This document shows, piece after piece, positions 2,394 through 37,743 of a stretch of 39,614 nucleotides of DNA. Below the pieces are notes generated by a model. The model had not been told where the DNA came from. It made no database searches and saw only the letters and a program-made list of their open reading frames with translations. Position numbers and translations under genes: made by a program. The stretch comes from an uncultured Lachnospiraceae bacterium (GTDB lineage: Bacteria > Bacillota > Clostridia > Lachnospirales > Lachnospiraceae): NCBI GenBank assembly GCA_946544235.1, contig CAMNMC010000061.1, forward strand, positions 1 to 39,614, written 5' to 3'. Each line of letters opens with the position of its first letter. Position 1 is the stretch's first letter.

Positions 2394-5300
2394 ATGCTAA
2401 GAAGACGATCACAACTTAATAAGAACAAAGGCTTCACCCTCGTGGAGCTTGTTGTTGTGCTCGTACTTATGGGCATACTCCTTGCGTTGGGTGTTTCGGG
2501 GCTTCTGTCATGGCAGGACTATTCACAGTTTAAGCAGGAAAACACAAACGCTGAGACTGTATTTTATGCGGTTCAGAATCAGTTCACGGAGTATAGTTCG
2601 AGCGGTATATTTGACGATAAGGTTACGAAGGTAGTGAAGCCTATGGTTGATCACAGGATCGGCGATAAGGATTCTGCCAATAACCTTTTTGATGGACAGA
2701 CCATCTCTTATGCGAAGAACAAATACTATAAGTGGGCGCCGGATGGTACGGAAGGAGTAGCTCTGTGGGCTCATACACCTGACAGTATTTCTGGTGACGA
2801 TGATGAGAGTAATTATCAGGGAAGCATTTATTATCTTTCAGCTGATAAGGGCGATTATGATCGCTACCTTGATTATCTTGCTGGCGACAGTGTTGAACTG
2901 GCTGACGACACTAAGCTTCTTTTTGAACTGATCACTACATATATCTCTGACAAATCTGTTCTTAATGGTGCTATGTGGGTTGAGTTCTCACCTGAAGCAA
3001 GACAGGTTTTCTCTGTATGCTACAGTGACCGCGTGGAAAGCTTTACAAAAGCAGAAACAGGCTCGGATGGTGTTATCAGTATTCGCAAACGTGAGGAAAG
3101 CATCAGACGTGACCTCATGATGGGGTATTATGCGGTTGATTCTCTTTCTGTTCCGATAAAGGGCAGGAGCAAAGGTAAGAACTTTGATATCTGGCTTGAG
3201 AACGACAATACGCTTGACCTTGTTATGTCGCTTGAGGATTTCACAGCAGCAACATATGTGGTAAATATTTACAACTATTCCGGTGAGATGATCGTTACAA
3301 GTAATTCACTTGTATCATTTGAGATACCGCTTAATGCAAATACTCCGGGAAATATCAAGGACGCTGAGGCAAATCCTGTCGAAACACAGGCTCTTATTGA
3401 CGGCGAGCAGAAGAGCATTCGTGTTCCTGTCTGGAAGAAGGATGTCGGAACCGGTGCTGAGATACATATAGTACTTGACGCGGCTGACGTTCAGGCTCAG
3501 TCTTATCTCTATGGAGAGACCTATACTGATGGCAGTATCAGTGCAGATAATAAGACACGTCTCCTTAAGACCTTCAGCTTCTATCGCTTTGGACTCGATA
3601 TGGGCAGCATCAGGCAGATAGGATGCGGAATTACCAGACAGGGCGAAACAGATGAATCTCTTTCATCAAATGTTGAGTCACCGACCTTTGCTTACGTTGA
3701 AAAGGATGATCTGGATAATCCTGTATATGGAATCAAAAACGGAAGACATCTCTACAATGTAAGATTTGAAACTGATTATAAGAAGGTAAGTAGTGAGAGA
3801 ACCTTCAGGCTTGAAGATGATATCGACTGGAAGGCTTTTACCGGCGGAACGGAAGATTCGAATATTAACTATTTCCTGAATTCCTACAAGCAGGGACAGA
3901 ATGTCGGCATAGATTATGACGGCAGGGATTATTCTATCAACTATTATGTTGATCAGATAGTAGACAGCAATGCGCGTAATACAGCTAATTATGCATTCCC
4001 TGGCTTCAAGGTTCTTTCGCTTGGCGATACCTTCACCGGCGAGAAGAGTGATGGCGAAGGCTGCTATACGATAAGCAACCTTACCATTACTTTTGCTGCA
4101 AATATGGCTTACGGTGTTTATGGAAGAGAAGCAAGATTTGAGTGGCAGTCTAAGAATGCTGACGGAACTGCTGCTGATTATGCATTGTCTGATTTTGGTA
4201 AATATCCTGAAAATCCTACAACAGGTTCTGAGCTTCATCCTTCACATCAGAAGGTTAACAGAGGCTTATATCCGCTCGGCCTTTTTGCAGAGAACTGCGG
4301 AAATATAAAGAATCTCGCACTCAATGCTCACAAGGTTGTTGGTATGCAGCTTCTTAAGACTGATATCAACGGTGAGAATCTTGAGCTTGTATATACAAAT
4401 ATGGTTGGTGGTTTCGTAGGAAACAACCTCGGAACACTTACAGGTCTTAAGCTCAGAAATGTGGCTTCACTTGCTGATAAGGATATCAGAGCCAAAGAAG
4501 CAGGTGTATCATCTGTTAATGGTAAGACTGACGTCGGTGGTATATTTGGTCGTGCAACATGGACCGTTAATACAACGACAGTTACTTTCGAGAACCTTGA
4601 AAACTATGCCAAGGTTTCCGGTATGGAAAATGTCGGAGGTATCGTCGGAAGAGCCTTTGTTATCAGAAATTATCTGGGCCCGAATAATCCTACGAGCAAT
4701 TCTATAATGCTTAATCATTTTGTTGAAAGAGAAAGCTACTATGATGATGGTTATGACCTTTACGGCAGCTACAACAACGTTGGCGAGTATCTGGACAGTA
4801 CTGAATTATGTCTGGGTGGACATCAGGTTAACAGGCTGGATAAAATCTACATTAAGAATTGCAAGAATCGTGGGGATGTTTCAGGAGATGAGCTTGTATA
4901 TCATAATATGATCTATCTCTATGAAGATCTGAAGATAACACAGAAAAACGGAGATAGATTATGGGAACCGAAAGATAATGCGAATCTTTCGAATGAAAAT
5001 TACAGATGTGCATTTATTGGTGGTATTGCAGGAATAACCATGGATGGTTATTACTATGATTTCAATGCCGGTGGAACCAAATGGATAGATAATGATCGTG
5101 ATACTGATCCGGATGATGCGGGACATACTAAGTTTGCAAAGAGCTTTTATAATAAAAGAGTTGTTGTTGAGAATTGCAGTTCCTACAGATTGTATGACAA
5201 TAGTGAACTGAGTGTTCTTATATCTGATGGCATCAATTTAGACAGCAGCAGCTTTATCTATCACAGACTCCATCATGATTATTATGTCGGAAGTCTTGTG

Positions 5301-8300
5301 GGCTATGCAAGATTTACTGAATTCAAGGACTGCGGAAACAGTGTTGATGATGAAGAAACAGGAGATTACAAAGCCTTCGTATTTGGCAGAAGCTACACAG
5401 GAGGACTCTTTGGATGCTTTGATCTGTCAACGGTTAAAAGCACCAATCTTATAGAGGGCAGATATAATATTGTTAATTATACTAATGTTATCGGTGTAAT
5501 GTATGCCGGTGGTTTTGCCGGTGGTGCAGGTATCGGAGAAGCTTCACAGCAGCATCTGTCATATAAACATCCTTCAACCAATCCTGGTTCTGCGTGTTCA
5601 CAGATTACAGGGTTTGCGGATTATATGAAGAACAGTGGAATCAAGAATACGGCAGTTGTTCTCGGGATCAGACGTGAAGCACTTGGCTATGATGACAATT
5701 CGCTGCTTAAGGCTCAGGACAGAGCGGCATTTGAATATGACGGTTTCACCAGCTTTTATTCTCGCCAGACGGAGGTTTTTTATGATTCTGGTATCGGAGG
5801 AGTAATTGGCTATGCCAGAGTTAAAATTGATAATTGTGATAATATTCAGAGTGAAGATGTTAAGAACTATGTTATTCAGCTCTTAGGTAAAGATCAGGAT
5901 GTTAACTTTGATACGTTTGCATATAGTAATAATATTCATGATTACTCTAGTTTATATGGAGGTACCGGAGTCGGAGGCATATATGGTATCACTCCGGGTA
6001 ACGCTGACCTGAACAGTGGCAGTGGCGCTTATAGTGTAGTAAGTGCAGTAGTCTACGGTGACGACATTGTCGGTGGTGTGGTTGGATCAAATAGAGATAG
6101 TAATGGAGGCTCAAACATTAATAATTCATATCTTGACGGGACTCTTGTCCTCGGAAGGAATATGGTTGGTGGATATATAGGGAAAAGCAGTTTTCATAAT
6201 AGTGTAACCAATGCTGCTCATGCGAGCCACAATTTCAGGGTTTATGGAGAATATGCGGTAGGTGGCTTTGCCGGAATGATGCGTGAGGGTACATCGAAGT
6301 ATTATATTTCCGGCGGAACTATAGATGGCGAACCGGGAGTTGATGTTGAGGTTCAGGGTAGTGCTTACGTTGGAGGAGTTGTCGGAGTTCTTTCAACCGA
6401 TAATAGTATAAGCGGAACTATCAAGAATGTTCATGTTAAAGCTAATCTTTATGCCGGAGGTATAGTAGGAGCTGTTTATCGTGCTGATAATGATAAAGAT
6501 TATACTAATCCTAAGCTGGATAATGTAAATGCCACAGGAACAGGCGTTTCTGTAGAGGCGGATTACTTCGCAGGAGGAATGTTTGGACTATACTCATATA
6601 GACATAATAATAGAGGAAAGTCATTTACATCATATGATGTTATAGATTATTCGGAGACGGATAATTACAATAATCATTTGGATTCACTTTGCCGTACAAT
6701 AAATAGTATAATAGCTTCGGATCCTATAGGTTTCTTTATTAATATAGCAAAATTAGAAAATGATGTAGATGCATCATTATGCGTGAACAGGAATAATAAA
6801 ACCCTCAAGAATTCGGTATTAAAACTGAATGCAACTACTGCAACACAGTTCAAGCCTTCCGTAAAGGCAAATGCAATGTTTGCCGGAGGTGTATTCGGAT
6901 ATATTCCGAAGGGATTGGGGATAACCTTTGACATGGAAGATAGAGAGATTAGTATTCCTGTTACTGCCGGATATGCTTATGTTAATAATATTGCATTCTA
7001 TGATGATGGAGTGTATGAATGTTTTCCTGAAATGGATTTGAGCACTTCAGATTGTGCTAATAATTATTCGTATTGCGGAGGTATCATAGGAAGAATTTCT
7101 AAGGATACTACTATTACCAATGCTTTATATACCGGTAAACTGACCAAGAATAATGAGACTACTTATCTTGGGCAGATTGCAGAAGTAAATGCAGGTACGA
7201 TCAGCAGTTCGGTTGTTAAAGGCTTTAACAGTGACGGCTCTCTGCATGATATAATGGGTGGACTTGTCGGGCTGAATGTCGGAACTATCGCTTCGAACAA
7301 CAGTATCGGAGAGGGAGTCACCCTTTCGGGCAAAAAGACTCTGGGTGCTCTTATGGGTGAGAACAGATCGGATATGTCACTTGGCGGCTGGAATATCAGC
7401 TGTGGAGATATGAATGTATCTGAAGCAGGAGGGTACGTGGGCGCTCTTGCCGGTATAAACACAGCCGCTATCGATATCGCAGGTTCAACTGTGAGAACGG
7501 GTACTGTCACCGGACAGGCATCGGTTGGCGCGTATGTTGGTGCAAATCTGGCCTATGACGACATAAGCAGTGTGATATATAACAGTTCCGTACAGGATTT
7601 TATACAGAACAGATATGACGGCGATTACAATGCATATCGTTATAATATAAAGGATGATGTCGCTGATCAGTCAAATAAGCTTTATGTAAATATTGATCTT
7701 ACCGTACAGAACGTTGCCGGAGTGGGCTTGATTGCTGGATACAGTGAAGGCGTTATCAGTGATATCTGTATATCGGATAGCTGCAGGCTTAGTATAAACG
7801 GCAGTTGTACAGATGCAGGTTCTGTCTGTGGTACTGCTGTTTCGACTGATCCGGATGCTGCCACAGTCGGAATAGTCAGATGTGTAAACTTTATTGATAT
7901 TGGACGTACAGGATCGTCCGAAATAACAAACGCGGGAGGTATTGTTGCGCGGATATTCTCCAAAGATGTTGCTGAGCTTACTTTGTCACAACTGGATAAT
8001 CATGGCGATATTTATGCCGGTAAAATGGCCGGAGGTATATTTGCTGTTTCGGAATCCGGTGACGTTAATGTCAGCGACTGCGTAAATACAGGAAAAGTAT
8101 CGACGGCTTCAGATGATGGCGTGGCAGGCGGTATGGCAGCAGATATAAATTTATCTTCAGATACAGAACTAAGATATTGCAGAAATTACGGCCTGCTTAA
8201 TGGCAGTGCTGAAAATTATGGTATCGGACCTGAAATATCAGCAATTGGTAATTGCATCAATGCAGGAAAACTTGGTGTTGATTCTGCATCCGGAGAAGAA

Positions 8301-9083
8301 GTGACTTACGGAGAGATAGGAAGCACTGAACATAATGCGGAATTTGTTCGTGATTTCTATATTGACGGAGTATCGGAAGAACCATATACGGGCGCAAAGC
8401 TGCCGTCTGTGACTATGGCTGCTGCGCCGAGTACTATCGCAGCGGGTGCTTTTAATATTGAGTTTCCACAGGAGGTTTTAGAGTATAAAAATAATTATAA
8501 TCAGTTGTATACTGAAAGGTATGGCTGGGCTCTTAGCCAGGGACCAAAGAACTATGTGAATCCAAGACTCCATCCTGAATGGAATCATGGTTACACTGAT
8601 AATTTATGGTTATATGATGTATATGTTGCATCCGGAATGAGTGATGATGGAGTTGATAGCGATTTTCATGATTATTGTGCAAAGGTTTTTGCTGCATTTA
8701 TATATACTGGGCACGAATATGATGAGACTAAGATAGAAGATTATCTTGATTATCTTAGGAGGGTTATCGAGACAGGAAAACTTCCGGGAATTGATGATTC
8801 AGGTGAAGAACTTGGTGAAGACACAAGTCATTGGCCGGTTCAGCTTTATGTTTATAAATATGATTCTGATGGTGGAGATCTGTATAGTCTGACCTTCAAG
8901 AGATGGAATAAGTATCTTCCGGCTGGAATCAGCGGGCTTATGTATGATCCGATAACGGAGAATGACAGATACAATGTATTTCTGGACGTTGATCCGGAGT
9001 TTATGAATATGGTCGATGATACAGATAATTATCCAAATACTGATGCGGATTCAGAAACTAAGAACGGATTTGTTTTGGAATAG
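2394..9083 (+). CDS. Giant type IV prepilin-like protein with GLUG-type repeats
   Basis: This 2229-residue protein starts with a class III prepilin leader: basic residues, then cleavage expected after G13 (NKG/FTLVE). Glu18 is mature position 5, followed by a hydrophobic helix of about 20 residues. Residues 14-60 look like an ordinary pilin N-terminal helix. From about residue 660 to 1900 there are roughly 25 GLUG-like motifs of the type VGG(I/F/V)xG, each followed by a short strand-forming segment. These repeats are found in large secreted bacterial adhesins and are expected to form a beta-solenoid. The last 240 residues are a separate unrecognised region rich in Tyr and Asp. There is no C-terminal anchor. 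The start is supported by a GAGGAG ribosome binding site about 8 nt upstream. As first of a run of pilin-like genes, it is inferred to be a minor pilin or tip adhesin displayed by the pilus. Typical pilins have 100-300 residues, so the size is exceptional. Confidence 0.88.
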   Translation: MLRRRSQLNKNKGFTLVELVVVLVLMGILLALGVSGLLSWQDYSQFKQENTNAETVFYAVQNQFTEYSSSGIFDDKVTKVVKPMVDHRIGDKDSANNLFDGQTISYAKNKYYKWAPDGTEGVALWAHTPDSISGDDDESNYQGSIYYLSADKGDYDRYLDYLAGDSVELADDTKLLFELITTYISDKSVLNGAMWVEFSPEARQVFSVCYSDRVESFTKAETGSDGVISIRKREESIRRDLMMGYYAVDSLSVPIKGRSKGKNFDIWLENDNTLDLVMSLEDFTAATYVVNIYNYSGEMIVTSNSLVSFEIPLNANTPGNIKDAEANPVETQALIDGEQKSIRVPVWKKDVGTGAEIHIVLDAADVQAQSYLYGETYTDGSISADNKTRLLKTFSFYRFGLDMGSIRQIGCGITRQGETDESLSSNVESPTFAYVEKDDLDNPVYGIKNGRHLYNVRFETDYKKVSSERTFRLEDDIDWKAFTGGTEDSNINYFLNSYKQGQNVGIDYDGRDYSINYYVDQIVDSNARNTANYAFPGFKVLSLGDTFTGEKSDGEGCYTISNLTITFAANMAYGVYGREARFEWQSKNADGTAADYALSDFGKYPENPTTGSELHPSHQKVNRGLYPLGLFAENCGNIKNLALNAHKVVGMQLLKTDINGENLELVYTNMVGGFVGNNLGTLTGLKLRNVASLADKDIRAKEAGVSSVNGKTDVGGIFGRATWTVNTTTVTFENLENYAKVSGMENVGGIVGRAFVIRNYLGPNNPTSNSIMLNHFVERESYYDDGYDLYGSYNNVGEYLDSTELCLGGHQVNRLDKIYIKNCKNRGDVSGDELVYHNMIYLYEDLKITQKNGDRLWEPKDNANLSNENYRCAFIGGIAGITMDGYYYDFNAGGTKWIDNDRDTDPDDAGHTKFAKSFYNKRVVVENCSSYRLYDNSELSVLISDGINLDSSSFIYHRLHHDYYVGSLVGYARFTEFKDCGNSVDDEETGDYKAFVFGRSYTGGLFGCFDLSTVKSTNLIEGRYNIVNYTNVIGVMYAGGFAGGAGIGEASQQHLSYKHPSTNPGSACSQITGFADYMKNSGIKNTAVVLGIRREALGYDDNSLLKAQDRAAFEYDGFTSFYSRQTEVFYDSGIGGVIGYARVKIDNCDNIQSEDVKNYVIQLLGKDQDVNFDTFAYSNNIHDYSSLYGGTGVGGIYGITPGNADLNSGSGAYSVVSAVVYGDDIVGGVVGSNRDSNGGSNINNSYLDGTLVLGRNMVGGYIGKSSFHNSVTNAAHASHNFRVYGEYAVGGFAGMMREGTSKYYISGGTIDGEPGVDVEVQGSAYVGGVVGVLSTDNSISGTIKNVHVKANLYAGGIVGAVYRADNDKDYTNPKLDNVNATGTGVSVEADYFAGGMFGLYSYRHNNRGKSFTSYDVIDYSETDNYNNHLDSLCRTINSIIASDPIGFFINIAKLENDVDASLCVNRNNKTLKNSVLKLNATTATQFKPSVKANAMFAGGVFGYIPKGLGITFDMEDREISIPVTAGYAYVNNIAFYDDGVYECFPEMDLSTSDCANNYSYCGGIIGRISKDTTITNALYTGKLTKNNETTYLGQIAEVNAGTISSSVVKGFNSDGSLHDIMGGLVGLNVGTIASNNSIGEGVTLSGKKTLGALMGENRSDMSLGGWNISCGDMNVSEAGGYVGALAGINTAAIDIAGSTVRTGTVTGQASVGAYVGANLAYDDISSVIYNSSVQDFIQNRYDGDYNAYRYNIKDDVADQSNKLYVNIDLTVQNVAGVGLIAGYSEGVISDICISDSCRLSINGSCTDAGSVCGTAVSTDPDAATVGIVRCVNFIDIGRTGSSEITNAGGIVARIFSKDVAELTLSQLDNHGDIYAGKMAGGIFAVSESGDVNVSDCVNTGKVSTASDDGVAGGMAADINLSSDTELRYCRNYGLLNGSAENYGIGPEISAIGNCINAGKLGVDSASGEEVTYGEIGSTEHNAEFVRDFYIDGVSEEPYTGAKLPSVTMAAAPSTIAAGAFNIEFPQEVLEYKNNYNQLYTERYGWALSQGPKNYVNPRLHPEWNHGYTDNLWLYDVYVASGMSDDGVDSDFHDYCAKVFAAFIYTGHEYDETKIEDYLDYLRRVIETGKLPGIDDSGEELGEDTSHWPVQLYVYKYDSDGGDLYSLTFKRWNKYLPAGISGLMYDPITENDRYNVFLDVDPEFMNMVDDTDNYPNTDADSETKNGFVLE

Positions 9084-9115
9084 TAATTTATTGATTATGT
9101 ATGAGGCGAGGAAGA

Positions 9116-9832
9116 ATGAGGACATTCAGAAGATCAAAAAAGAATAATCGAGGAGCGGCGATGTTGGTAACCATTATCATCATTGCTGTTCTTGTTGTAT
9201 TTTCTTTCACCCTGATCCTTATATCATATAATCTCTATGCGTCGCAGAATAAGAATCTGGCAAGTGACAGGAACTCCGAAGCGGCAAATACCTTATCCAG
9301 GGCGCTTCAGGAGGAGCTTAATCCGGATAATAAACCTGCTGCGAACAGTAATCTCTGGAAATATCTCAGATGCAATATTGCGTATGAGAATGGAAGTACC
9401 GAAGATAAAGGAGGCTGGGAGGACTGGCCATATTATCAGGCAGGTTTGGAAAACCATGGCGAGAAGGAAGCTAAGAGGTATTTCAAACTGGATAATAACA
9501 ATGACATCGAAGGCATGCCTGCTGATGTGAGCGTCTGCATCTATTGGGAGCTTCCGGATGACGTTACTATCGATGAAACAACCGGTCTTCCGAATAAGAA
9601 AACACCTGAACAGGTTGAAGAAAAGAGAAGCGGTATCCTCCTTTATATCGAGATTACCTGCACCACGGGCGGACAGATATACAGGATGACAGATAAATAT
9701 GAGCTGGAAGTATATGCGCCGGAGGATCTCCTTGTTCAGGAAGAGCTCAGGGCTGCTAACAATTCCAGAAATAATCCGGTGAATCATACTATCAACTTGA
9801 ATGAAGACTGGCATTGGGTACATAAAAACTGA
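9116..9832 (+). CDS. Pseudopilin-like protein lacking Glu5 (PilX/GspK-like)
   Basis: The second pilin-like gene of the cluster, about 238 residues. The preferred start is the ATG at 9116, because the GAGGAA-type site lies before it, while the in-frame ATG at 9101 has no ribosome binding site. The N-terminus is basic (RRSKKNNRG) followed by AAML and a long hydrophobic helix to about residue 37, as in a class III leader. Mature position 5 is Val instead of the usual Glu. GspK and some tip-forming minor pilins naturally lack this Glu, so the protein may sit at the tip of a minor-pilin complex. This is inference; no family-specific C-terminal domain was recognised. The soluble part (about residues 45-238) is hydrophilic. 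It ends 9 nt before the next pseudopilin gene, so the two are translated from one message. Confidence 0.75.
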   Translation: MRTFRRSKKNNRGAAMLVTIIIIAVLVVFSFTLILISYNLYASQNKNLASDRNSEAANTLSRALQEELNPDNKPAANSNLWKYLRCNIAYENGSTEDKGGWEDWPYYQAGLENHGEKEAKRYFKLDNNNDIEGMPADVSVCIYWELPDDVTIDETTGLPNKKTPEQVEEKRSGILLYIEITCTTGGQIYRMTDKYELEVYAPEDLLVQEELRAANNSRNNPVNHTINLNEDWHWVHKN

Positions 9833-9841
9833 GGAAACGAT

Positions 9842-10360
9842 ATGAAAAAGAGAACTAAGTACAAACTGAATAATACCGGTTCGACCATGGTGGAAACTCT
9901 GGTTTCTTTTGTGGTTCTCTTTATCGTGCTTGCTTCGCTCTACGGCATTGTAAGTTTTTCAAATGAACTGTATATGAAGTCGGTGGATACGAGCAGAATA
10001 AATCAGAAATTTTACATTGAGATATATAAATATCCGCTTGGAAAGGTGACAGGCGCAGCTGATGATGCATATGTTAAACCTGTGAATTATGATCCGGGTT
10101 ATGCACCTGCCGATGAGGATGACGAAGAAAATGACGAGGAAGGCGACGGAGAGAACACTAAATACGCCGGCCTCACACTGCTTCTTGATACTGAGAAGAC
10201 CAAGCCGGAAAATGGCATAGAAAATGCTATCAGGGACGCATATATCAGCCTTGATAATGTCGGAGTTACAAGCTTTACCTGTAATGATGAAGAAGCAGAG
10301 GAAGAGGAGCTGATCCTTCCTAAGGCTATTCATTTCTGGTGGATAGCTCCGGAACCGTAG
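9842..10360 (+). CDS. Minor pseudopilin with class III signal
   Basis: A 172-residue prepilin-like protein. The leader is basic and ends NNTG13; the mature protein would start STMVE, with Glu at position 5, followed by a hydrophobic helix (LVSFVVLFIVLASLYGIVSF). This fits processing by a prepilin peptidase and membrane insertion before pilus assembly. The C-terminal half is strongly acidic (a D/E-rich stretch around residues 94-104 and another near 150-155) and the protein ends in a short hydrophobic WWIAPEP tail. A GAGGAA ribosome binding site overlaps the preceding stop. It probably forms part of a minor-pilin priming complex with its neighbours. No specific subtype can be assigned. Confidence 0.78.
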   Translation: MKKRTKYKLNNTGSTMVETLVSFVVLFIVLASLYGIVSFSNELYMKSVDTSRINQKFYIEIYKYPLGKVTGAADDAYVKPVNYDPGYAPADEDDEENDEEGDGENTKYAGLTLLLDTEKTKPENGIENAIRDAYISLDNVGVTSFTCNDEEAEEEELILPKAIHFWWIAPEP

Positions 10361-10406: not shown

Positions 10407-11093
10407 ATGAAGAGATTCAGTAGAAAACTGAACAGACATACCGCCGATAACAAAGGTATGACTCTCGTAGAGATGATAGTGAGCTTTATGCTGCTCAGTA
10501 TCTTTGTTGTGTTGTCTACGATCATCATTTCAAATGTTGTGGCACTTTATTACAGAGTTCGCGGTGAAAGTTATGCGCGCCAGGTTGGCGATATCGTGAT
10601 GAAAAAGATCACGGCTGAGGTATCGGGAGCTGAGTATTTTGGAGATTCTTCTCTTGACCCTGTTATATATTGCAGGAGTCTGGAGGGTTCGGACAAGGCC
10701 TACGATCTCGTGCTGGTAGACAGTACCGATACACGCATCAGGATATATTCAGCTGATAATATGCTTAAGATATATTATTATCCGATCAATGACGATAATC
10801 AGCCGGTTAATTCAAGATCATCCGTTGAATGGACCTTTGATAAGAAGATGTACAACGGTTATTCACTGGTTTCAATGGATTTTGCCCAGGCAAATTCTGA
10901 TCTGAACGAAACACTCGCTGAAAAATATAACATCAAGGGTGTTGATAAAACCGGTTATCCGTCTAATGTTGTTGCGGTTTACATGAAACTGAAAAGCGGC
11001 AAATACGGAACTTTTACAATATGTCGTTATGTTAAGATGTACAATATACCCGAAACGGGGTATAATATAGAGATAAAAAACTATTCGGAATAA
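10407..11093 (+). CDS. Minor pseudopilin with class III signal
   Basis: A 228-residue prepilin-like protein. The leader ends DNKG17 and the mature end would be MTLVE, with Glu at position 5, then a hydrophobic helix (MIVSFMLLSIFVVLSTIIISNVVAL). The soluble region has mixed strand-like sequence, including KIYYYPI and a late YGTFTICRYVKMY segment, consistent with a PulJ/ComGF-like pseudopilin fold, though the subtype is not certain. A GGAG site precedes the ATG. It follows the previous pseudopilin by 46 nt without a terminator and belongs to the same operon. Expected role: minor pilin in assembly or tip complex. Confidence 0.78.
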   Translation: MKRFSRKLNRHTADNKGMTLVEMIVSFMLLSIFVVLSTIIISNVVALYYRVRGESYARQVGDIVMKKITAEVSGAEYFGDSSLDPVIYCRSLEGSDKAYDLVLVDSTDTRIRIYSADNMLKIYYYPINDDNQPVNSRSSVEWTFDKKMYNGYSLVSMDFAQANSDLNETLAEKYNIKGVDKTGYPSNVVAVYMKLKSGKYGTFTICRYVKMYNIPETGYNIEIKNYSE

Positions 11094-11175
11094 TATGATA
11101 TATTAGTCCGGGTAAAGGTATAAAATATAGGTATGATTATTGGGGCATACCGTGTATTTATGGGGGAGACTTAAT

Positions 11176-11601
11176 TTGAAGGACAGAATCAATCTAGGCA
11201 AAGCTGTAAAGTTTTTACTGATCGCAGTAGGGCTTTTCATTATCGGAATAGCTGTATTTGCGTTCTTTAAAGTGCGCTCAAATGCGAAGAATGCGCTTCG
11301 TGAAGCAAAGAATGTTTATCTTGCGCTGTATACGACCGATATTGAGTATTACGCTCAGGGTAAGAGTATCTATGATCACTCCAAGGCTGACGGTATGGCC
11401 GACGGTGTTAAGGAAGTAGTCGATACACTGGCGGATGCTGATGGAAAATATATCATAACCTCGTACAATGCTCGTAAGAGAGAGGTTACCGGAATGCAGT
11501 ATCGTAAAGGACATTATCTTGTTACCTTTACAAAGAAAGATGGTCATGAAATCTGGACGGTTGATTATTCGATGAGACTGTACAGAATGACGGATGAGTG
11601 A
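11176..11601 (+). CDS. Small pilin-like membrane protein without prepilin leader
   Basis: A protein of about 141 residues. The start chosen is TTG at 11176, since the GGGGGAGA site lies at the right distance before it; an in-frame TTG at 11140 has no site and would add 12 residues. It has one N-terminal membrane helix (AVKFLLIAVGLFIIGIAVFAFF), then an amphipathic stretch (AKNALREAKNVYLALYT) that resembles the region following the membrane helix in the major pilin encoded at 18037. There is no Gly-Phe-Thr cleavage site and no Glu5. It could be an uncleaved pilin-like assembly factor or a diverged minor pilin. Its position between pseudopilins and the prepilin peptidase gene supports a T4P role. 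Function is not established. Confidence 0.65.
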   Translation: MKDRINLGKAVKFLLIAVGLFIIGIAVFAFFKVRSNAKNALREAKNVYLALYTTDIEYYAQGKSIYDHSKADGMADGVKEVVDTLADADGKYIITSYNARKREVTGMQYRKGHYLVTFTKKDGHEIWTVDYSMRLYRMTDE

Positions 11602-11689: not shown

Positions 11690-12097
11690 ATGTTCTGGCT
11701 TGAATTTACGATCATCGCGGCAAGGACTCTTATAGAGATCATATTTTTCGCGATAGGTGCTACGATTTTTTCATTTTTAAATGTTGTTATATACAGACTG
11801 CCGAGACATAAGGGGTATGTTAAGGGCAAGTCAATGTGTCCGAAGTGCACACACACCTTGTACCGTAAGGATCTGGTTCCGATCATTTCATGGATCAGCC
11901 TGAAAGGGCGCTGCCGTTACTGTGGATGCCGCATCTCGCCACGTTACACGATAGTCGAGCTTCTCGGCGGCATAAGCGCAGTTGTCTTCACCCTGTGTGT
12001 TGGAATCAATTTATGGGCACTCGCAGGATTCCTGCTTACGGGAGTTGTGACTGTTGCAGTATGCATTACTTATGATGTAATGCTGAAGAGGATATGA
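11690..12097 (+). CDS. pilD: Prepilin peptidase (PilD/ComC family), N-terminal domain only
   Basis: A 135-residue protein matching the N-terminal part of A24 prepilin peptidases. It has a first membrane helix, the FLNVVIYRLPR segment, a Cys4-type motif (C50xxC53 and C75xxC78, plus C80), then the SPRYTIVELLGG segment that precedes further membrane helices. Full-length enzymes have about 220-290 residues and two catalytic aspartates. Here an Asp at 129 (ITYDVML) sits near the usual first aspartate, but the protein stops 6 residues later, so the GxGD motif with the second aspartate is absent. No continuation was found in other frames downstream. The remaining part corresponds to the N-methyltransferase/zinc region. 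It is either a natural split protein with the peptidase domain encoded elsewhere, or a truncated gene. A GGAGAAG site precedes the ATG. Confidence 0.8.
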   Translation: MFWLEFTIIAARTLIEIIFFAIGATIFSFLNVVIYRLPRHKGYVKGKSMCPKCTHTLYRKDLVPIISWISLKGRCRYCGCRISPRYTIVELLGGISAVVFTLCVGINLWALAGFLLTGVVTVAVCITYDVMLKRI

Positions 12098-12251: not shown

Positions 12252-13457
12252 ATGGCTACATACAAGTACAAAGCTAAGGATGAAGAAGGGCGTGTCGTTT
12301 CCGGTGAGTTAACCGCGGCGGATGAAAATGAACTCCACGAGAAACTGAAACTGGACAAGATGCTTCTTATGGAATCCAAGGAAAAGGTTGAGAAGAAGAA
12401 AAGCTCAAGAAAACTGAAATATGACCGACTGGCTGACTTTTCACGAAGTCTCGCCAAGCTTCTTGCAGCGGGCGTTACTCTTGTAAGAGCGCTCAGGATC
12501 ATTGCGGATGATGAGTCTATTCCTGAGAAGGAGAGAGCAATCTACAATGATGTATTGAAGCAGGTAAGAGCAGGAATGACGCTTTCGGATGCCATGGAAG
12601 AGCAGGGAGATACATTTCCGACTCTCTTCGTAAATATGATACGTTCTGCGGAAACCGGCGGTAACATGGATGTCACCTGTATGAACATGGCTGAGTATTA
12701 CAGCAAGGAACACAGGATGCGTCAGAAGATTTCAAGTTCGATGACCTATCCTAAGATACTTGGTGTTTTGATAGTCATAGTGCTTATAATCATCATGGGC
12801 TTCGTGCTTCCTCAGTTTGATTCACTGTTTTCACAGATGGAAAGCCTGCCGGTTGCAACGAGATTGCTCATGGGTATATCGGATTTCATATCGCACAAGT
12901 GGTACCTCCTGATATTCTTCGGCGTTATCTTTGTGATGATACTAAAGATAGTCTTCTCATTTCCGGCTGTTAAGCTCTGGAAGGATAAGATGGAGCTCAG
13001 AATCCCGAAGATAGGTAAGCTGAGAAAGATCATCTACACAGCAAGATTTGCAAGAACTCTGGCAAGCCTTTATTCAGCAGGTATTCCGATCATAAGCTGT
13101 CTGCAGATAGCCAAGACGACCATTGGCAATACATATATAGAAGGTCAGTTCGACGATCTTATCGCATACATCCGTTCCGGCGGAACGCTGAGTGACGGTG
13201 TTGACAGGATAGACGGCTTCGTTAAGAAGCTTCCTTCATCGATCAATGTCGGTGAAGAGACCGGTGCTCTGGATCATATGCTTGTTTCCATCGCTGATCA
13301 GATGGATTATGATTCCGAGATCGCCACAGAGAAGATGGTTGCAATGATAGAACCGCTTATGATAGTAATTATGGCGGTCATGGTAGGATTCATATTGATA
13401 GCCATTATTCAGCCTATTTATGGTTCATATCAGGCTATTGCCGATACGGCCAAGTAA
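12252..13457 (+). CDS. pilC: Type IV pilus inner membrane platform protein PilC (T2SSF family)
   Basis: A 401-residue protein of the GspF/PilC family. It begins with the typical MATYKYKAKDEEGRVVSGEL segment and carries two T2SSF repeats: the first around residues 60-185 (LADFSRSLAKLLAAGVTLVRAL), the second around 265-390 (ARFARTLASLYSAGIPI). Membrane segments lie near residues 172-192, 215-237 and 372-395. The length is normal for the family. In T4P systems PilC sits in the cytoplasmic membrane and couples the PilB ATPase to pilin insertion at the pilus base. A GGGGAAC site precedes the start. It is separated from the peptidase gene by the long hairpin at 12129-12201, which could set the ratio of upstream pilins to downstream motor proteins. 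Confidence 0.95.
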   Translation: MATYKYKAKDEEGRVVSGELTAADENELHEKLKLDKMLLMESKEKVEKKKSSRKLKYDRLADFSRSLAKLLAAGVTLVRALRIIADDESIPEKERAIYNDVLKQVRAGMTLSDAMEEQGDTFPTLFVNMIRSAETGGNMDVTCMNMAEYYSKEHRMRQKISSSMTYPKILGVLIVIVLIIIMGFVLPQFDSLFSQMESLPVATRLLMGISDFISHKWYLLIFFGVIFVMILKIVFSFPAVKLWKDKMELRIPKIGKLRKIIYTARFARTLASLYSAGIPIISCLQIAKTTIGNTYIEGQFDDLIAYIRSGGTLSDGVDRIDGFVKKLPSSINVGEETGALDHMLVSIADQMDYDSEIATEKMVAMIEPLMIVIMAVMVGFILIAIIQPIYGSYQAIADTAK

Positions 13458-13472: not shown

Positions 13473-14939
13473 ATGAGCGTAAGTATATTTTTAAACAATG
13501 CAACAGTTCAGATAGTAACTGGGAAGAAAGCAAAGAAGGGTGTATTTGAGCGTGCCATTAAGGTTAATGCGCCTGAAGGAAGCATAATCAATGGTATAAT
13601 CATGGAATCCGACAGATTTGCGGCCTTCCTTAATGAAGTATGGACTGCAAATAACCTTCCTCGTAAGGATGTAATTCTTGTTGTTAACAGCAACAAGATA
13701 CCGGGGCGTACGATTGAGATGCCTCTGATGAATCCTAAAAAGTCGGTTGAATACATGAAGAGAGAGCTCTCTGACATGATGCGTGAGGGTGAGGAAATGA
13801 TCCTTGCCTATAACAGTCTCTCATCTGATTCAAGTAAGAAGATGAAGAAGATGTATGTTGAGCTTGCAAGTCGTGATCAGCTGAAGGATTATATTGATAT
13901 CTTTGCTGCAGCGGGTATTACGCTGAGCAGTATTCAGTCGGCAGAAGGAAGTCTTATCGGTCTTCTCGAGCAGGCGACGGCAAAACAGTACAAGACCTTT
14001 GTTATGCAGATAACAGATCAGAATATCGTATCGAATGTTCTCTGGGTTAATGGTGTGTTTAACTATTTCAACTCTGTAAGACTCTTTAACGAGCCGGGAA
14101 CAGAGGGTTATTATGACGACTGCGCAAGATCGCTCAGTAACCTGAAGCAGTTCATGGTTGCAAATAAGATTGAGGCCAGAATCGAGAGAGTTGTTATAGC
14201 AGGAACAGAGAGAAATGATGTTTCATTCTATAGCGAGATGGTTGCCAACTACGGAATCGAGGCTCCGGTTGAGATCATGAATTCCGGACTGGGGACAAAT
14301 CCTCAGCAGCAGTTTGAGGCGCAGAAGGCTATATTTGCCCTGGGCGGACTTTTCGACTGCGGAAAGCAGGAGAATTTCCTGACCAATTACAAAACCAAGG
14401 ATAAGAAGCAGTCTGTTAATCCTGAACTTAAGAAAAATATAATCATAATTGCATCGGTTTTTGCAGTGATGATGATCGGCTTTGTAACCGCGCTTTTCCT
14501 TAAGATTCAGCGTCAGAAGAAATATGATGAGCTGAAGGAATACAATGAGAACCCGGCGGTAGTTTCACAGGCAATGCTCTTTGATACATTTTCCGTTAAG
14601 AGAGATAAGCTGGCTGCACAGTCCAATTCCATCGACAATATGTTAAATACGATCGAAACCTATCCGATACTTAACGATGAAATTATCAAGATCCTTCAGG
14701 AAACCGCAAAGGGGTATGCTACCATCGAAATAGGTAATTTCAACGCGGACAGTGGTGTCGTTAACGTGGCTGCCAAGGCGAAGGATGTTGAGAAGATAAA
14801 TGAATATATTAAACGTCTTGAGGAAAAGGATATATTCAACAGCGTGAAGTATTCAGGATACACCATGAACTCGGACGGCACGTGGACTATAAATGTTAAC
14901 TGCACCTTTGCCGAAGGTGTCGGAAGGGGGGAGAAGTAA
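13473..14939 (+). CDS. pilM: PilM-like protein fused to a PilN-like membrane segment
   Basis: A 488-residue protein. Residues 1-315 resemble the actin-like cytoplasmic PilM protein of T4P systems, with an N-terminal strand opening and the segment RTIEMPLMNPKKSVEYMKREL. Residues about 322-343 form one membrane helix (IIIIASVFAVMMIGFVTALF). This is followed by a predicted coiled coil and an extracytoplasmic domain ending in KINEYIKRLEEKDIFNSVKYSGYT, which looks like the C-terminal part of PilN. In most T4P systems PilM and PilN are separate, with the PilN N-terminus binding PilM. Here the order PilM-TM-PilN suggests a single-chain fusion. It follows pilC by 15 nt (ribosome binding site GGGGGAGGG) and ends 1 nt before the PilO-like gene. 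The family assignment is moderate; the topology is clearly visible. Confidence 0.75.
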   Translation: MSVSIFLNNATVQIVTGKKAKKGVFERAIKVNAPEGSIINGIIMESDRFAAFLNEVWTANNLPRKDVILVVNSNKIPGRTIEMPLMNPKKSVEYMKRELSDMMREGEEMILAYNSLSSDSSKKMKKMYVELASRDQLKDYIDIFAAAGITLSSIQSAEGSLIGLLEQATAKQYKTFVMQITDQNIVSNVLWVNGVFNYFNSVRLFNEPGTEGYYDDCARSLSNLKQFMVANKIEARIERVVIAGTERNDVSFYSEMVANYGIEAPVEIMNSGLGTNPQQQFEAQKAIFALGGLFDCGKQENFLTNYKTKDKKQSVNPELKKNIIIIASVFAVMMIGFVTALFLKIQRQKKYDELKEYNENPAVVSQAMLFDTFSVKRDKLAAQSNSIDNMLNTIETYPILNDEIIKILQETAKGYATIEIGNFNADSGVVNVAAKAKDVEKINEYIKRLEEKDIFNSVKYSGYTMNSDGTWTINVNCTFAEGVGRGEK

Positions 14940-14940
14940 C

Positions 14941-15855
14941 ATGAAGACAACGATGACAGATAGAGATAAAAAGCTTCTCCTCGGAATGTTTATTTTCGTA
15001 ATAGTTGTTGCTATAGGCTACTGGGGTATCATTCCTCAGATCAAGGCTTATAATAAGCTTGGTACCAAGATCGATAAGGAAGAAGTTACCAAGAGTGTGA
15101 ATGAGCAGAAGGTTTCAAACCTTATCTTTGTAGAGTCTATGTGCGAGGAATTCGAGGAGGCAATGGCTGAGAATAAGGCTAAGTTCTTCGACAGGATGAC
15201 TGAGGCTGAAGTTGACTTCATGCTGACGACCAAGGCAGTGAATCATAATCTTGAGGCGTATAGCCTGAGTATTGATATTCCGACAAAACCATCCGGTCGT
15301 ATGGCTTATGTATATTCTAAATTATATCTTCAGCAGAAGGAATGGGAGAAGGAAAGACAGAAAAATGATTTTGATGAGGATGATGAGGAGGATGACCTCC
15401 TAGGAATCGAAAGCAGTGATAAAAAGGATAAAAAGGATAAATCATCAAAGGAAGATGAAACCATTGATATCTTCGGAGATACAGATACGGTTGGTCAGAA
15501 TACTGATATCTATGCTGCCAAGGTAACAATTTCCCTCGGTGGAGATGAGGCGGATCTTAAGGCCTATCTCAATGAGATTATGGCTTCTGAGAAGAAGATT
15601 CTTATCACTTCGTTCTCGTGGGGTGAATACAAGACTCAGAAGCCGGTAACCGTTACCGCAGAGGAAGTGATAGAGGCTGAGGAAAAGGCTGAAGCTGAAG
15701 GAAAAACTGACGGAGACGGAAGTGAGTCAGAGAGCGGTGATGATTCTTCAGAAAAAGCGACTACAAAAAAGAAGACAGAAACAAAGTATGAGCTTGTAAC
15801 GGTTAAGTCTCTGACCGTAACAATGGAAATATTTATGTGTGATAAGGTTGAGTAA
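14941..15855 (+). CDS. pilO: PilO-like pilus assembly protein
   Basis: A protein of about 304 residues. The start is ATG at 14941, with a GGGGGGAG site directly before it; an upstream in-frame ATG at 14893 lies inside the preceding gene and is less likely. It has one membrane helix near residues 10-30, a coiled-coil stretch, then a region split by two low-complexity acidic/Lys-rich segments (about residues 140-180 and 245-285). The C-terminal part (KSLTVTMEIFMCDKVE) is strand-like. Size, topology and place after the PilM/N gene fit PilO/GspM, which forms the alignment subcomplex with PilN. Sequence similarity is weak by eye, so the name rests largely on context. The acidic linkers are unusual for PilO. 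Confidence 0.7.
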   Translation: MKTTMTDRDKKLLLGMFIFVIVVAIGYWGIIPQIKAYNKLGTKIDKEEVTKSVNEQKVSNLIFVESMCEEFEEAMAENKAKFFDRMTEAEVDFMLTTKAVNHNLEAYSLSIDIPTKPSGRMAYVYSKLYLQQKEWEKERQKNDFDEDDEEDDLLGIESSDKKDKKDKSSKEDETIDIFGDTDTVGQNTDIYAAKVTISLGGDEADLKAYLNEIMASEKKILITSFSWGEYKTQKPVTVTAEEVIEAEEKAEAEGKTDGDGSESESGDDSSEKATTKKKTETKYELVTVKSLTVTMEIFMCDKVE

Positions 15856-15905: not shown

Positions 15906-17591
15906 ATGGAGATTAAAAACAACAGAAACATACGAATAGGCGATGTTTTAAAGGAATTCGGATATGTTACCGAAGAACAGATCGAGGAGGCTATAGCATA
16001 TCAGAAAACTCATGAGGGAGTACGTCTGGGTGGTGCTCTTATCGAACTCAATATCATTACAGAGAGACAGATGCTTGAGGCACTTGGGCAGAGACTTCAG
16101 TACAGGGTGGTTAATATTTCCGATATCACCTTCGATATAAATGCTGTTGAGATAATTCCGCGGCCTCTGTCTGAAAAATACTGTATACTTTCATATAAGG
16201 ATGAGGATGGTGTTCTCTATATACTGACAAACGATCCGCTGAACTTCTACGGAATTGAGGATATCAGACAGGTTGCAGGTGAGGACCTTCATATCGAGCT
16301 CTGTGAGAAGAAACCTCTTGAAAATGCTATCCAGTATTACTATTCAGAGGTTTCGGCTAAGAAGGCGGCAGATAAGGCTGCAAAGTCAAACTTTGCCGAG
16401 GCGGAAGAGATTGAGGTAAATGTTGAGGATGCGGATGATGATACGCCTATCATCAATCTTCTTAATTCACTTATAATAAGAGCCTACAATTCGAATGTTT
16501 CCGATATTCATATCGAACCTTTTGAGAAACACACATCAGTAAGAATGCGTATGGATGGTGTTATTGTTGATTTCCTTACGCTTCAGAAAAATATACATAA
16601 CTCCCTTATTGCTCGTATCAAGATCCTGGGTGATCTTGATATAGCTGAGAGAAGAGTTCCTCAGGACGGACATTTTAAAACTACCATTGACGGTACTCCT
16701 GTCAATGTCAGAGTTTCGGTTCTTCCTACTGTATTTGGAGAGAAGGCGGTTCTTCGACTTCTTGCCAGCTCGGCTACCATCGATCATTCCGGAACCTTCG
16801 GAATGAGTGAAAAGAATTACGAGATAGTAAAGGGCATGCTCAATTCTCCGAACGGCATCGTGTATGTTACCGGTCCTACCGGATCCGGAAAGTCAACTAC
16901 TCTTTATATGATTCTCTCTGAACTCTCTCAGAGAGCGGTTAACATAATGACAATTGAGGATCCGGTTGAGAAGAATCTTCCGAAGCTCAATCAGACTCAG
17001 GTTAATGTTACTGCGGGTCTAACATTTGAGATCGGTCTTCGTGCTTTGCTCCGTCAGGATCCGGATATCATCATGCTCGGTGAGACTCGTGATGCTGAGA
17101 CCGCATCAATCTCAGTCAGAGCAGCTATCACCGGTCACCTTGTTCTTTCAACACTTCATACCAATGATGCGGCTTCTTCTGTAACACGACTTATTGATAT
17201 GGGCATTGAGCCATACATGCTCGCAAACTCTCTGGTTGGAATCATTGCTCAGAGACTTGTAAGAAAAGTTTGTCCGGCATGTTCGGTCTGGGCCGAAATG
17301 ACTCCTGAAGAGGAGAGAATAGTCGGAAGAAGACTCCCACAGGTTAAACATATCGTCGGCTGTAAACAGTGTAACAATACCGGTTACCGGGGACGTATCT
17401 CCCTCCATGAGATACTTCCAATCGATAAAAATGTCAGAAAGATGATCTCTGAGAACAGAACAGCAGAAGAGATCAAGGAATATGGCGTAAAGGAGCTCGG
17501 TATGGAACCGTTAAAGAGCGGTGCAATCAGGCTGATCAACGAGGGTATTACAACAGTAGAAGAGCTTGCGAAGGTTGCATACTACGATTAA
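15906..17591 (+). CDS. pilB: Type IV pilus assembly ATPase PilB (GspE/PilB family) with MshEN motifs
   Basis: A 561-residue hexameric-type secretion ATPase that powers pilus extension from the cytoplasmic face. The N-terminus holds two consecutive MshEN-type motifs: R10-I-G-x-x-L with G19, and R40-L-G-x-x-L, each followed by an amphipathic helix ending near Q33 and Q62. The GspE/PilB core includes the Walker A GPTGSGKST near residue 322, the Asp-box region, the Walker B motif DPDIIMLGETRD near 385, a His box GHLVLSTLHTNDA near 410, and a zinc-type Cys4 motif (CPAC near 456, CKQC near 486). Length is normal. It is the last gene of the operon before a strong terminator. No retraction ATPase PilT gene is seen in the window. 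MshEN domains are known c-di-GMP sensors, so second-messenger control is plausible but inferred. Confidence 0.96.
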   Translation: MEIKNNRNIRIGDVLKEFGYVTEEQIEEAIAYQKTHEGVRLGGALIELNIITERQMLEALGQRLQYRVVNISDITFDINAVEIIPRPLSEKYCILSYKDEDGVLYILTNDPLNFYGIEDIRQVAGEDLHIELCEKKPLENAIQYYYSEVSAKKAADKAAKSNFAEAEEIEVNVEDADDDTPIINLLNSLIIRAYNSNVSDIHIEPFEKHTSVRMRMDGVIVDFLTLQKNIHNSLIARIKILGDLDIAERRVPQDGHFKTTIDGTPVNVRVSVLPTVFGEKAVLRLLASSATIDHSGTFGMSEKNYEIVKGMLNSPNGIVYVTGPTGSGKSTTLYMILSELSQRAVNIMTIEDPVEKNLPKLNQTQVNVTAGLTFEIGLRALLRQDPDIIMLGETRDAETASISVRAAITGHLVLSTLHTNDAASSVTRLIDMGIEPYMLANSLVGIIAQRLVRKVCPACSVWAEMTPEEERIVGRRLPQVKHIVGCKQCNNTGYRGRISLHEILPIDKNVRKMISENRTAEEIKEYGVKELGMEPLKSGAIRLINEGITTVEELAKVAYYD

Positions 17592-18036: not shown

Positions 18037-18534
18037 ATGAAGAGAAAGACTAACAAAGATAAAGGTTTTACACTGGTTGAGCTGATTGTTGTTCTGGTTA
18101 TCCTGGCTATACTTGCAGCAATTCTTGTTCCTGCACTTCTGGGATATATCGACAGAGCAAGAGAGAAACAGTACGTACTTAACGCTAAGTCAGCTCTTAC
18201 AGCTACACAGGCTGAACTGTCATCTATCTATGGTGAGGATAGCAATACTCCTAAAACATTATTAGGCGATAGATCAGAAACAATTAAGAACACTGCAGAT
18301 GTTCCGGGAGCATTCTATATCGTAACTACATTGGAAGATGGAACAGGTGAAGTAGGCGACAAGGATTATGCGCAGACATCTACTCCAGCAGATAAGGATC
18401 ATCATAGTGATTATACAGTTAAGAAAGCACTTTATGTAGAAAAAGGTTATTATTGTGTATTTGATGGTTCTACATGGACAACAACTCAGGAAGAGCCTGA
18501 TAACATGGATGATTACACACTGATTTTTGAATAA
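18037..18534 (+). CDS. pilA: Putative major type IV pilin
   Basis: A 165-residue prepilin. The leader MKRKTNKDKG10 is cut before F11; the mature protein begins FTLVE with Glu at position 5. The hydrophobic helix is long and regular (LIVVLVILAILAAILVPALLGYI), continuing into an amphipathic stretch (DRAREKQYVLNAKSALTATQAEL) typical of pilin alpha-1. The globular domain is short, with a Gly/Asp/Thr-rich middle and a strand-like C-terminus (YYCVFDGSTWTT). No disulfide pair is visible: only one Cys is present. Its own near-consensus promoter, strong AAGGAGG site and terminator, and its separation from the minor pilins, point to the abundant structural pilin. It could still be an alternative pilin if another copy exists elsewhere in the genome. 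Confidence 0.9.
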   Translation: MKRKTNKDKGFTLVELIVVLVILAILAAILVPALLGYIDRAREKQYVLNAKSALTATQAELSSIYGEDSNTPKTLLGDRSETIKNTADVPGAFYIVTTLEDGTGEVGDKDYAQTSTPADKDHHSDYTVKKALYVEKGYYCVFDGSTWTTTQEEPDNMDDYTLIFE

Positions 18535-19052: not shown

Positions 19053-19412
19053 ATGTTTGATCTTATTTTTTTCAGGGATAAAGATGGTAATAGTGATGTT
19101 TTGGATTATTTATGCGAATTAAGAGACGAATCCTTTCGGAATAAGGATTGTAGAGTAAACCTAAACAAGATAACAGCATATATGGATATGTTGCAGGAAT
19201 ATGGAACGTTTATAGGAACTCCGTTTGTTAAATATATTGAAGATGATATTTGGGAGTTGAGTCCTTTATCAAATAGAATATTCTTTGCATTTATTAATAA
19301 TGCTACATATATTGTGTTGAGCTGTTATATCAAAAAATCGAAGAAGACGCCTAAACGTGAGATTAAAAAGGCAAGGGACAGATTGGAAGAGTATAGAAGG
19401 AGAAATGTATAA
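19053..19412 (+). CDS. RelE/HigB-type toxin (Gp49-like family)
   Basis: A 119-residue basic protein of the phage-derived Gp49-like / HigB branch of the RelE superfamily. It has the family pattern: a VLDYLCELRD helix after the first strand, a middle YGTFIGTPFVKYIEDDIWELS segment, then RIFFAFINNATYIVLSCYIKK and a basic C-terminal helix (TPKREIKKARDRLEEYRRR). The IWEL and R-I-F-F positions with the late Lys/Arg cluster correspond to the substrate-binding face in such toxins. RelE-type toxins cleave mRNA, usually at the ribosome. Toxin-first order, with the XRE antitoxin gene starting 2 nt after the toxin stop, is typical of higBA modules. The promoter is close and near consensus. Confidence 0.88.
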   Translation: MFDLIFFRDKDGNSDVLDYLCELRDESFRNKDCRVNLNKITAYMDMLQEYGTFIGTPFVKYIEDDIWELSPLSNRIFFAFINNATYIVLSCYIKKSKKTPKREIKKARDRLEEYRRRNV

Positions 19413-19414
19413 AT

Positions 19415-19792
19415 ATGGATGAGTGGAGAGAACTCAGGAAAACTTTTAATTTTACTCCTGAAGAAGAAAAAATAATTGAATGTGAGAAAGAATTAATAAG
19501 AACTATGGTGAGAATACGTGAGGAGCAAGGCCTTTCTCAGGCTGAATTGGCAAGAATGAGTAACGTTAAGCAACCGGTCATTGCAAGAATGGAAAAAGCA
19601 GTTCATTCTCCTCAAATTGACAGCCTTCTTCGTATACTTACACCGATGGGCTATACTTTAAGCATTGTTCCAATTGGAAAGGATCCGGATGCCAAAGAGA
19701 TGCTCGAGCAGGCAGAAGCCTGGGCGGCTTTAATGACAACTGTGAATAATACAGAAGATAATAAGGATTATGATAGGGAGATAATGAAGTGA
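19415..19792 (+). CDS. XRE-family antitoxin (HigA-like)
   Basis: A 125-residue protein with a Cro/cI-type helix-turn-helix at about residues 28-85 (REEQGLSQAELARMSNVKQPVIARME, then SLLRILTPMGYTLSIVPIG). This domain, with its TLSIVP ending, is typical of antitoxins paired with Gp49-like toxins. It is expected to neutralise the product of the preceding gene and to repress the shared promoter. The start 2 nt after the toxin stop implies translational coupling; an AAGGAG site lies inside the toxin end. The C-terminal tail (about residues 95-125) is acidic. Confidence 0.87.
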   Translation: MDEWRELRKTFNFTPEEEKIIECEKELIRTMVRIREEQGLSQAELARMSNVKQPVIARMEKAVHSPQIDSLLRILTPMGYTLSIVPIGKDPDAKEMLEQAEAWAALMTTVNNTEDNKDYDREIMK

Positions 19793-31842: not shown

Positions 31843-32058
31843 GTGCCCTGTCATTAATCAAACTTGTTTTTTTATAAAATTTAATGATATGTTTATGATG
31901 TATTATTGGGAGAAATATGCCTTTCACCGGGTTACAAAAGGGGTGTTCTCAAATCGGATCATTTTTGAGGGGGAACTGAGAGCTATAAAGGTGATAGGAT
32001 TAATTGTTTCCCCTGATAGATTGAAATGATCCAAAGATATGATAACAGGAGGGATGTT

Positions 32059-37741: not shown

Positions 37742-37743
37742 AA

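Follow-up and report, generated by a model that had tools for sequence, protein, structure and literature searches.

The stretch of DNA analysed here, 39,614 nucleotides of contig CAMNMC010000061.1 from an uncultured Lachnospiraceae bacterium (in the following the window), encodes a prepilin of 2229 residues that we judge to be quite probably a minor pilin of modular build and giant size. Its arm, probably a beta-helix and likely adhesive, would be displayed at or near the tip of a monoderm type IV pilus. We infer assembly, location and function from features that support this reading at the sequence level: the leader, the repeats, the gene order, the conservation and the fact that in other genomes the head occupies this position as a prepilin of its own. 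The gene is made up of the following parts:

2394 to 9083, + strand: giant GLUG-like modular prepilin, 2229 residues (open reading frame, leader, N_methyl, repeat counts)
2394 to 2432, + strand: prepilin leader peptide, residues 1–13, predicted cut after G13 (leader motif and N_methyl)
2433 to 3143, + strand: pilin head, residues 14–250, the best-conserved part (mean pairwise identity 0.49)
3144 to 3731, + strand: linking region, residues 251–446 (conserved LDAAD.QA stretch)
3732 to 8273, + strand: GLUG-like repeat region, about residues 447–1960, probable beta-helix (motif counts, GLUG pieces, profile match)
8274 to 9080, + strand: variable C-terminal tail, residues 1961–2229, mean pairwise identity 0.22 (alignment)

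Length, strand and coordinates of the open reading frame (ORF) agree with an initial annotation made from the letters of the sequence alone, and the mass of the mature protein was computed as about 241 kDa. The prepilin leader described there could also be confirmed. It reads MLRRRSQLNKNKG/FTLVE with Glu5, the cleavage glycine is G13 (NKG/FTLVE), and PF07963 (N_methyl) passes in the 2229-residue protein with E=3.6e-7 and 29.9 bits against a cut-off of 21.2. The cleavage rule for class III signals is established and was used for the cut predicted after G13. Glu5 is invariant in the aligned heads (22/22). The head profile matches PilE1 of S. sanguinis with E=5e-8 over only about the first 73 positions, and matches to solved pilins reach no further. 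A Pfam scan of a piece covering most of the linking region gave zero matches, and no further membrane stretch was found in the window's giant by simple pattern search.

Homologues that combine a prepilin leader with GLUG-like repeats in type IV pilus loci, as proposed for a check in the initial annotation, were sought and found: 34 loci carry at least five motifs. These loci were selected by protein or head match, and the script demanded the leader and at least five repeat motifs. The window's giant is acidic, with a pI of 4.59, and the range over the 34 giants is 4.25–5.42. A sortase-anchored surface protein is disfavoured, neither LPxTG nor a hydrophobic C-terminal tail being present in any of the 34 giants.

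The strict VGG(I/V/F)xG pattern occurs 7 times in the protein, a relaxed form 15 times and a loose form 22 times. In comparison, 2000 shuffles gave means of 0.036, 0.25 and 1.3 and maxima of 2, 3 and 7, respectively. The repeats are far beyond chance and in this respect real as first described, but their number, given there as some 25, could not be upheld. Among eight relatives scanned whole, GLUG (PF07581) exceeds its cut-off of 20.5 bits in two, L026 (32.5 bits) and L032 (32.8 bits), stays below it in L023 (18.0 bits) and L029 (20.0 bits), and gave no match in L022, L024, L025 and L122 at the limits used. A profile of 21 repeat regions, compared with all solved chains, matched 7uvl_P with E=1.4e-5. 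The entry 7uvl is a Gemella IgA1 metalloprotease complex, the NTD2 of which is described as a beta-helix (PMC9637739). Because of this match and of the GLUG scores above cut-off in L026 and L032, the repeat region is likely a beta-helix as judged from sequence.

The same match could point to an enzymatic extra module of the M26 peptidase type. Among relatives of the repeats only one structure has been solved, that of an M26 metalloprotease (7uvl), and a survey of modular pilins predicts a peptidase for the IPR012902-IPR011493 pair (PMC8179133). However, HExxH is absent in 33/34 giants including that of the window, the sole one standing at residue 2361 of the 2437-residue protein of L075. Furthermore, the matched positions 215–429 of the 7uvl chain belong, as we read its description, to the part carrying the beta-helical NTD2, away from the HEMTH site (PMC9637739). 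A peptidase is accordingly disfavoured already by the lack of the zinc motif in the window's protein, and we consider it extremely improbable.

The giant is followed by three pilin-like genes and a run of pilus machinery, as given below together with the gene upstream:

2 to 2344, + strand: C-terminal part (780 residues) of an upstream giant modular prepilin with DUF285 repeats, assigned by homology and cut by the contig edge
9101 to 9832, + strand: K-like pilin-like protein without Glu5 (NRG/AAMLV; leader reading)
9842 to 10360, + strand: I-like minor prepilin (G/STMVE; leader, N_methyl 16.1 bits, below the cut-off of 21.2)
10407 to 11093, + strand: J-like minor prepilin (G/MTLVE; PF07963, E=2.2e-5)
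11140 to 11601, + strand: small protein without convincing family match, placed in the pilus run by position
11690 to 12097, + strand: A24_N-only protein, the methylase half of a prepilin peptidase (PF06750, E=3.1e-29)
12252 to 13457, + strand: PilC/GspF-type platform protein (T2SSF, E=2.5e-54)
13473 to 14939, + strand: PilM-like protein, weak (TIGR01175, E=6e-4; PF11104, E=0.0067)
14893 to 15855, + strand: possible PilN/PilO-type protein (position only; zero family matches)
15906 to 17591, + strand: PilB/GspE-type extension ATPase with an MshE-related motif that binds cyclic di-GMP (c-di-GMP) (TIGR02538, NF053729, PF00437)
18037 to 18534, + strand: putative major pilin, 165 residues (PF07963, E=4.8e-10; "major" from size and sequence)

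The location among minor pilins and pilus genes proposed at the outset is thus borne out by the three pilin-like genes directly downstream, the PilC, the PilB-type ATPase, the weak PilM and the major pilin. The arrangement is widely kept. The gene after the giant has a pilin-like start without Glu5 in 32/33 loci having such a gene (L066 ends with the giant; L030 was counted by eye against the script's label, and the start in L073 is not settled), and I- and J-like prepilins come next in 26/34. Among the other eight, L030–L032 show a different order, L028, L064, L066 and L074 are truncated, and one leader in L076 escaped detection. In known systems the H-I-J-K set is located at the pilus tip and capped by a subunit without Glu5 (PMC10191384). 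The position of the giant's gene, adjoining the K-like gene without Glu5 and the I- and J-like genes, fits that of an H subunit, the K, I and J labels themselves being unconfirmed by profile.

In three genomes the head was found alone, as a prepilin of normal size. It measures 213 residues in L123 (same family, other genus), where PilD-, PilC-, PilM- and PilB-like genes lead to it and a Glu5-less pilin-like, an I-like and a J-like gene follow. In L124 and L125, from two nearly alike genomes of another family, it measures 191 and 189 residues and stops where the window's head stops (about residue 250). There it precedes a Glu5-less pilin-like protein and an I-like prepilin; the J-like gene is present in L124, and the contig of L125 ends before it. 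Gene roles in L123–L125 were read by eye, without a family scan. The same cassette thus apparently occurs with and without the giant arm. Because the head alone takes the same place in these three loci, the giant can be described, by sequence comparison, as a complete pilin on which the repeats are grafted.

This bears directly on the possibility that the giant is a wall-spanning surface protein, which would be anchored in the membrane by the prepilin helix without ever becoming part of a pilus. With its mass of about 241 kDa the giant would be hard to pull from the membrane and through the wall; its assembly into a pilus is deduced, and the fold of its head is unsolved. The normal-sized prepilins with the same head in the same place argue against such an anchor, as do the conserved cassette of a Glu5-less pilin and I- and J-like prepilins beside the giant, the retention of Glu5 in all aligned heads and the fact that pilus machinery adjoins a giant in another family too. 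We regard the anchor as unlikely and favour a minor pilin.

The initial annotation had placed the giant first in the run of minor pilins. This does not hold, as ORF 2–2344, which ends 49 bp upstream of it, is judged by homology to be the C-terminal part of another giant prepilin. The window starts at the contig edge, so that this ORF is incomplete. It contains DUF285 (E=1.9e-50) and aligns to residues 1471–2146 of a 2220-residue prepilin of L007 (42% over 691 columns, best local alignment). The end of contig C117 (L033) aligns to the same L007 prepilin from its start, leader included (38% over 1546 columns). By homology, the leader-bearing part of the upstream giant would be this contig end; the two pieces lie on separate contigs and are unjoined. 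As both align to the L007 giant, the 2229-residue protein would most likely be the downstream member of a pair of giant prepilins.

A prepilin of 858–2254 residues lies at most 84 bp upstream in 21 of the 22 same-genus loci whose upstream side could be read (L007, L008, L062–L081), the exception being L081 with a prepilin of 168 residues 278 bp away. For the 11 loci of other genera (L022–L032), L022 has a giant upstream and three have a prepilin of 119–289 residues; in the other seven no upstream prepilin was found within the limits of the script. DUF285 exceeded its cut-off in eight of nine upstream giants scanned (from the 22), and the ninth, in L080, carries Flg_new. Their heads resemble the major pilin of the window: the head of the L007 upstream giant matches it with 42% over 145 columns, heads in 20/22 loci with 34–45% over 114–169 residues, and the remaining two with 57–59% over 61 residues. 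From these alignments the upstream partner appears as a major-pilin-like module fused to other repeats, mostly DUF285.

With the whole protein at E<=1e-20, matches were obtained in 13/299 family genomes and 31/61 genus genomes; the head profile at the same limit found 32/61 genus genomes. At E<=1e-10 the head profile matched 52/397 family, 18/391 class and 5/398 phylum genomes. It begins with the general pilin helix, so that ordinary pilins make up many of the weaker matches. In 40 of the 52 family genomes (counted by eye) the head match is accompanied by an open frame of at least 1000 residues. Within that count the match in G291 misses the pilin start, and in G129, G220, G026, G233, G222, G834 and G087 the long frame matches only about the first 68–112 of 461 positions; these seven may hold other giant pilins. 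Since frames of at least 1000 residues with such a start occur in about 40/397 family genomes, the giants are not a curiosity limited to one strain.

Outside the family, one genome in the class sample has the full head (G936, E=1.5e-83), in a prepilin of 2034 residues with 22 loose motifs. There PilD, PilM and a T2SSM/PilO-like gene lead to the giant, and K-, I- and J-like genes follow (L122). Frames of 2449 and 2780 residues, matched over the first 78–82 positions only, occur in two further genomes, which belong to another family. The longest frame comprises 7664 residues (G179, contig C19); two fetched pieces (L110, L111) show the leader and 69 loose GLUG-like motifs. A 393-residue frame next to it looks PilT-like by eye. 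In G184, contig C36 (L114, L115), tandem giant frames of 3222 and 3167 residues have nearly identical prepilin starts.

Along the protein the mean pairwise identity is highest in the head (0.49), lower across the middle and the repeats (0.33–0.44) and lowest in the tail (0.22; 20 sequences, 190 pairs, including L022 of another genus). Such a gradient would be expected if the base is fixed and the outer end diversifies.

Several results weigh against the favoured reading as a giant modular minor pilin. A whole-protein Pfam search of the window's giant returned no GLUG at E up to 1; GLUG was seen in 4/10 pieces, and the best of these reached 18.7 bits, below the cut-off, so that the profile check proposed initially succeeds in the relatives L026 and L032 and fails in the window's own protein. 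The 7uvl match concerns a single chain, and its best stretch has a bias term of 22.2 beside 24.4 bits. AlphaFold models from three-sequence alignments were uninformative, with pLDDT of 29.3 (head) and 32.2. The GspH model (TIGR01708) matches the giant with 20.9 bits against a cut-off of 80, confined to residues 12–33. Profiles of the downstream proteins found no solved K subunit for 9101–9832, no solved I subunit for 9842–10360, the I label staying unconfirmed, and only pilin N-termini but no solved J for 10407–11093. At E<=1e-20 the head is missing in 29/61 genus genomes, and in 9/31 of those with at least 90% completeness and at most 5% contamination. One head-bearing frame of 338 residues (L126, G846) has no pilin cassette around it. 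The aligned fraction drops along the protein from 0.88 to about 0.5, and the identity gradient may partly reflect relaxed constraint or poor alignment.

Taken together with the evidence above, these points leave the giant modular minor pilin as the probable reading. Its leader would be cut by prepilin peptidase after G13, and residues 14 to about 250, which make up the head, would be built into a monoderm type IV pilus together with the downstream K-, I- and J-like pilins. The rod of GLUG-like repeats (about residues 447–1960), most likely a beta-helix, would then project from a place at or near the tip and bear the variable end. The arm could serve in adhesion to surfaces met in the animal gut, for example plant fibre or mucus. 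In its own genus the protein would work beside the second giant encoded just upstream, with its major-pilin-like module and mostly DUF285 repeats. The solenoid arm in a pilus suggested initially thus gains from the GLUG-like repeats and the pilus-locus context; the location at the tip and the adhesive role are suggested.

Instead of a surface adhesin, the giant might be a tip receptor for DNA uptake resembling ComZ, a pilin with a DNA-binding beta-solenoid (PMC6561018). A ComEC-family match is present in the genome and decides neither for nor against competence. The acidic pI of the giant would speak against DNA binding, yet the ComZ solenoid is likewise described as without a marked positive patch (PMC6561018). 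That solenoid comprises about 380 residues inserted in the pilin sheet; here the repeats come after the head. The big differences in length and tail between species would also suit diverse ligands better than DNA, and we judge a DNA receptor very unlikely.

Going one step further, two giant tip arms may replace PilY1 in this genus, one a GLUG beta-helix on a fourth minor pilin in the H position and the other a duplicated major pilin with DUF285 repeats, forming a joint structure at the tip, tens of nanometres in length, with outer ends that diversify from one species to the next. We put this forward tentatively, with somewhat less than even confidence. The finding suggests how monoderm pili without PilY1 may gain a large tip adhesin, and raises the question of how a protein as large as about 241 kDa can be moved across the cell wall by the pilus motor. 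With heads that occur alone in the same position, the graft itself can be studied.

Regarding the remaining pilus genes, the ATPase encoded at 15906–17591 matches TIGR02538 with E=1.6e-154 and 515.7 bits, under the cut-off of 675.65; PF00437 is over its cut-off, and NF053729, the MshE-related motif, scores 51.4 bits against a cut-off of 38. This motif in a PilB-type ATPase hints at control of piliation by c-di-GMP. A second pilus locus on contig C105 holds a PilB-type ATPase, a PilT-sized T2SSE ATPase of 351 residues and other pilin-like and PilC-like frames; the window's pilus could therefore be retracted by an ATPase whose gene lies outside its own locus. The prepilin peptidase is apparently split. 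ORF 11690–12097 (+) holds the A24_N methylase half alone, and Peptidase_A24 was matched only once in this genome (82% complete), on contig C97 and without an A24_N part. The same was seen in 8/8 same-genus genomes tested (97–100% complete), with A24_N once, in a frame of 140–146 residues, and Peptidase_A24 in separate frames of 250–353 residues. A frame sized like the protein at 11140–11601 occurs at the same position in many relatives. A pattern scan of the 34 loci was positive for Walker A in 8 and for A24_N in 12, which says little as most loci end earlier.

Upstream of the giant gene, the promoter-like site at 2351–2379 is at chance level (one found against a shuffle mean of 1.2). Two terminator-like hairpins, against a shuffle mean of 0.2, both lie within the start of the gene. 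Just past the pilus genes, genes for a Gp49-like and then a helix-turn-helix protein (19053–19792, + strand) form a toxin-antitoxin-like pair. Tandem repeats with units like TGACGACGA occupy 33885–34055 inside a 1070-residue ORF (32026–35238), for which no Pfam match was obtained at E up to 1e-5, and a 72-bp unit in about two copies (94% matches) lies between ORFs at 37740–37888.

The architecture had initially been thought undescribed. This could not be maintained, as modular pilins are a known class and ComZ is a solved pilin with a beta-solenoid (PMC8179133, PMC6561018). The giant has an extra GLUG-like domain behind a complete pilin part, a class III signal and a pilus-gene context. We take IPR011493 to be GLUG. 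Only if this applies would IPR012902-IPR011493 pilins, one of 264 architectures in one survey (PMC8179133), share the giant's pair of features; their module is called a predicted M26 peptidase there, as opposed to a repeat arm here. In the open-licence literature we found no description of the giant size, of the wide conservation in a minor-pilin cassette or of the tandem pair. The extreme case named by the survey has 860 residues and contains a different motif 12 times (PMC8179133), and the 7664-residue prepilin of the relative far exceeds the pilin sizes in the literature found.

A close likeness exists to PilB and PilC of S. sanguinis, with a class III signal including Glu5, a pilin part and a grafted module in a monoderm pilus (PMC8179133, PMC9934059). 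That system also has two different modular pilins, modelled at the tip, compared to two giants here (PMC8179133, PMC9934059). PilB and PilC have masses of about 50 and 53 kDa and a single compact module each, vWA or lectin, whereas the giant has about 241 kDa and about 1500 repeat residues; unlike in S. sanguinis, the upstream partner in relatives reaches 858–2254 residues. ComZ of Thermus thermophilus likewise joins a pilin to a beta-solenoid, with a tip position argued on structural grounds, but it belongs to a diderm, and the giant's repeats, placed behind the head, are about four times longer than its inserted DNA-binding solenoid (PMC6561018). The PilC/PilY1 tip adhesin of diderms is similarly very large, modular and displayed at the tip on a minor pilin complex (PMC8179133, PMC10191384, PMC9934059). 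PilC/PilY1 itself, however, is described as no pilin and as absent in monoderms (PMC9934059), whereas the large arm found here belongs to a pilin. Because modular pilins are well described (PMC8179133, PMC9934059, PMC10191384), the kind is already known, and the giants are an extreme variant of this design, its size stretched several-fold over the modular-pilin examples in the literature found.

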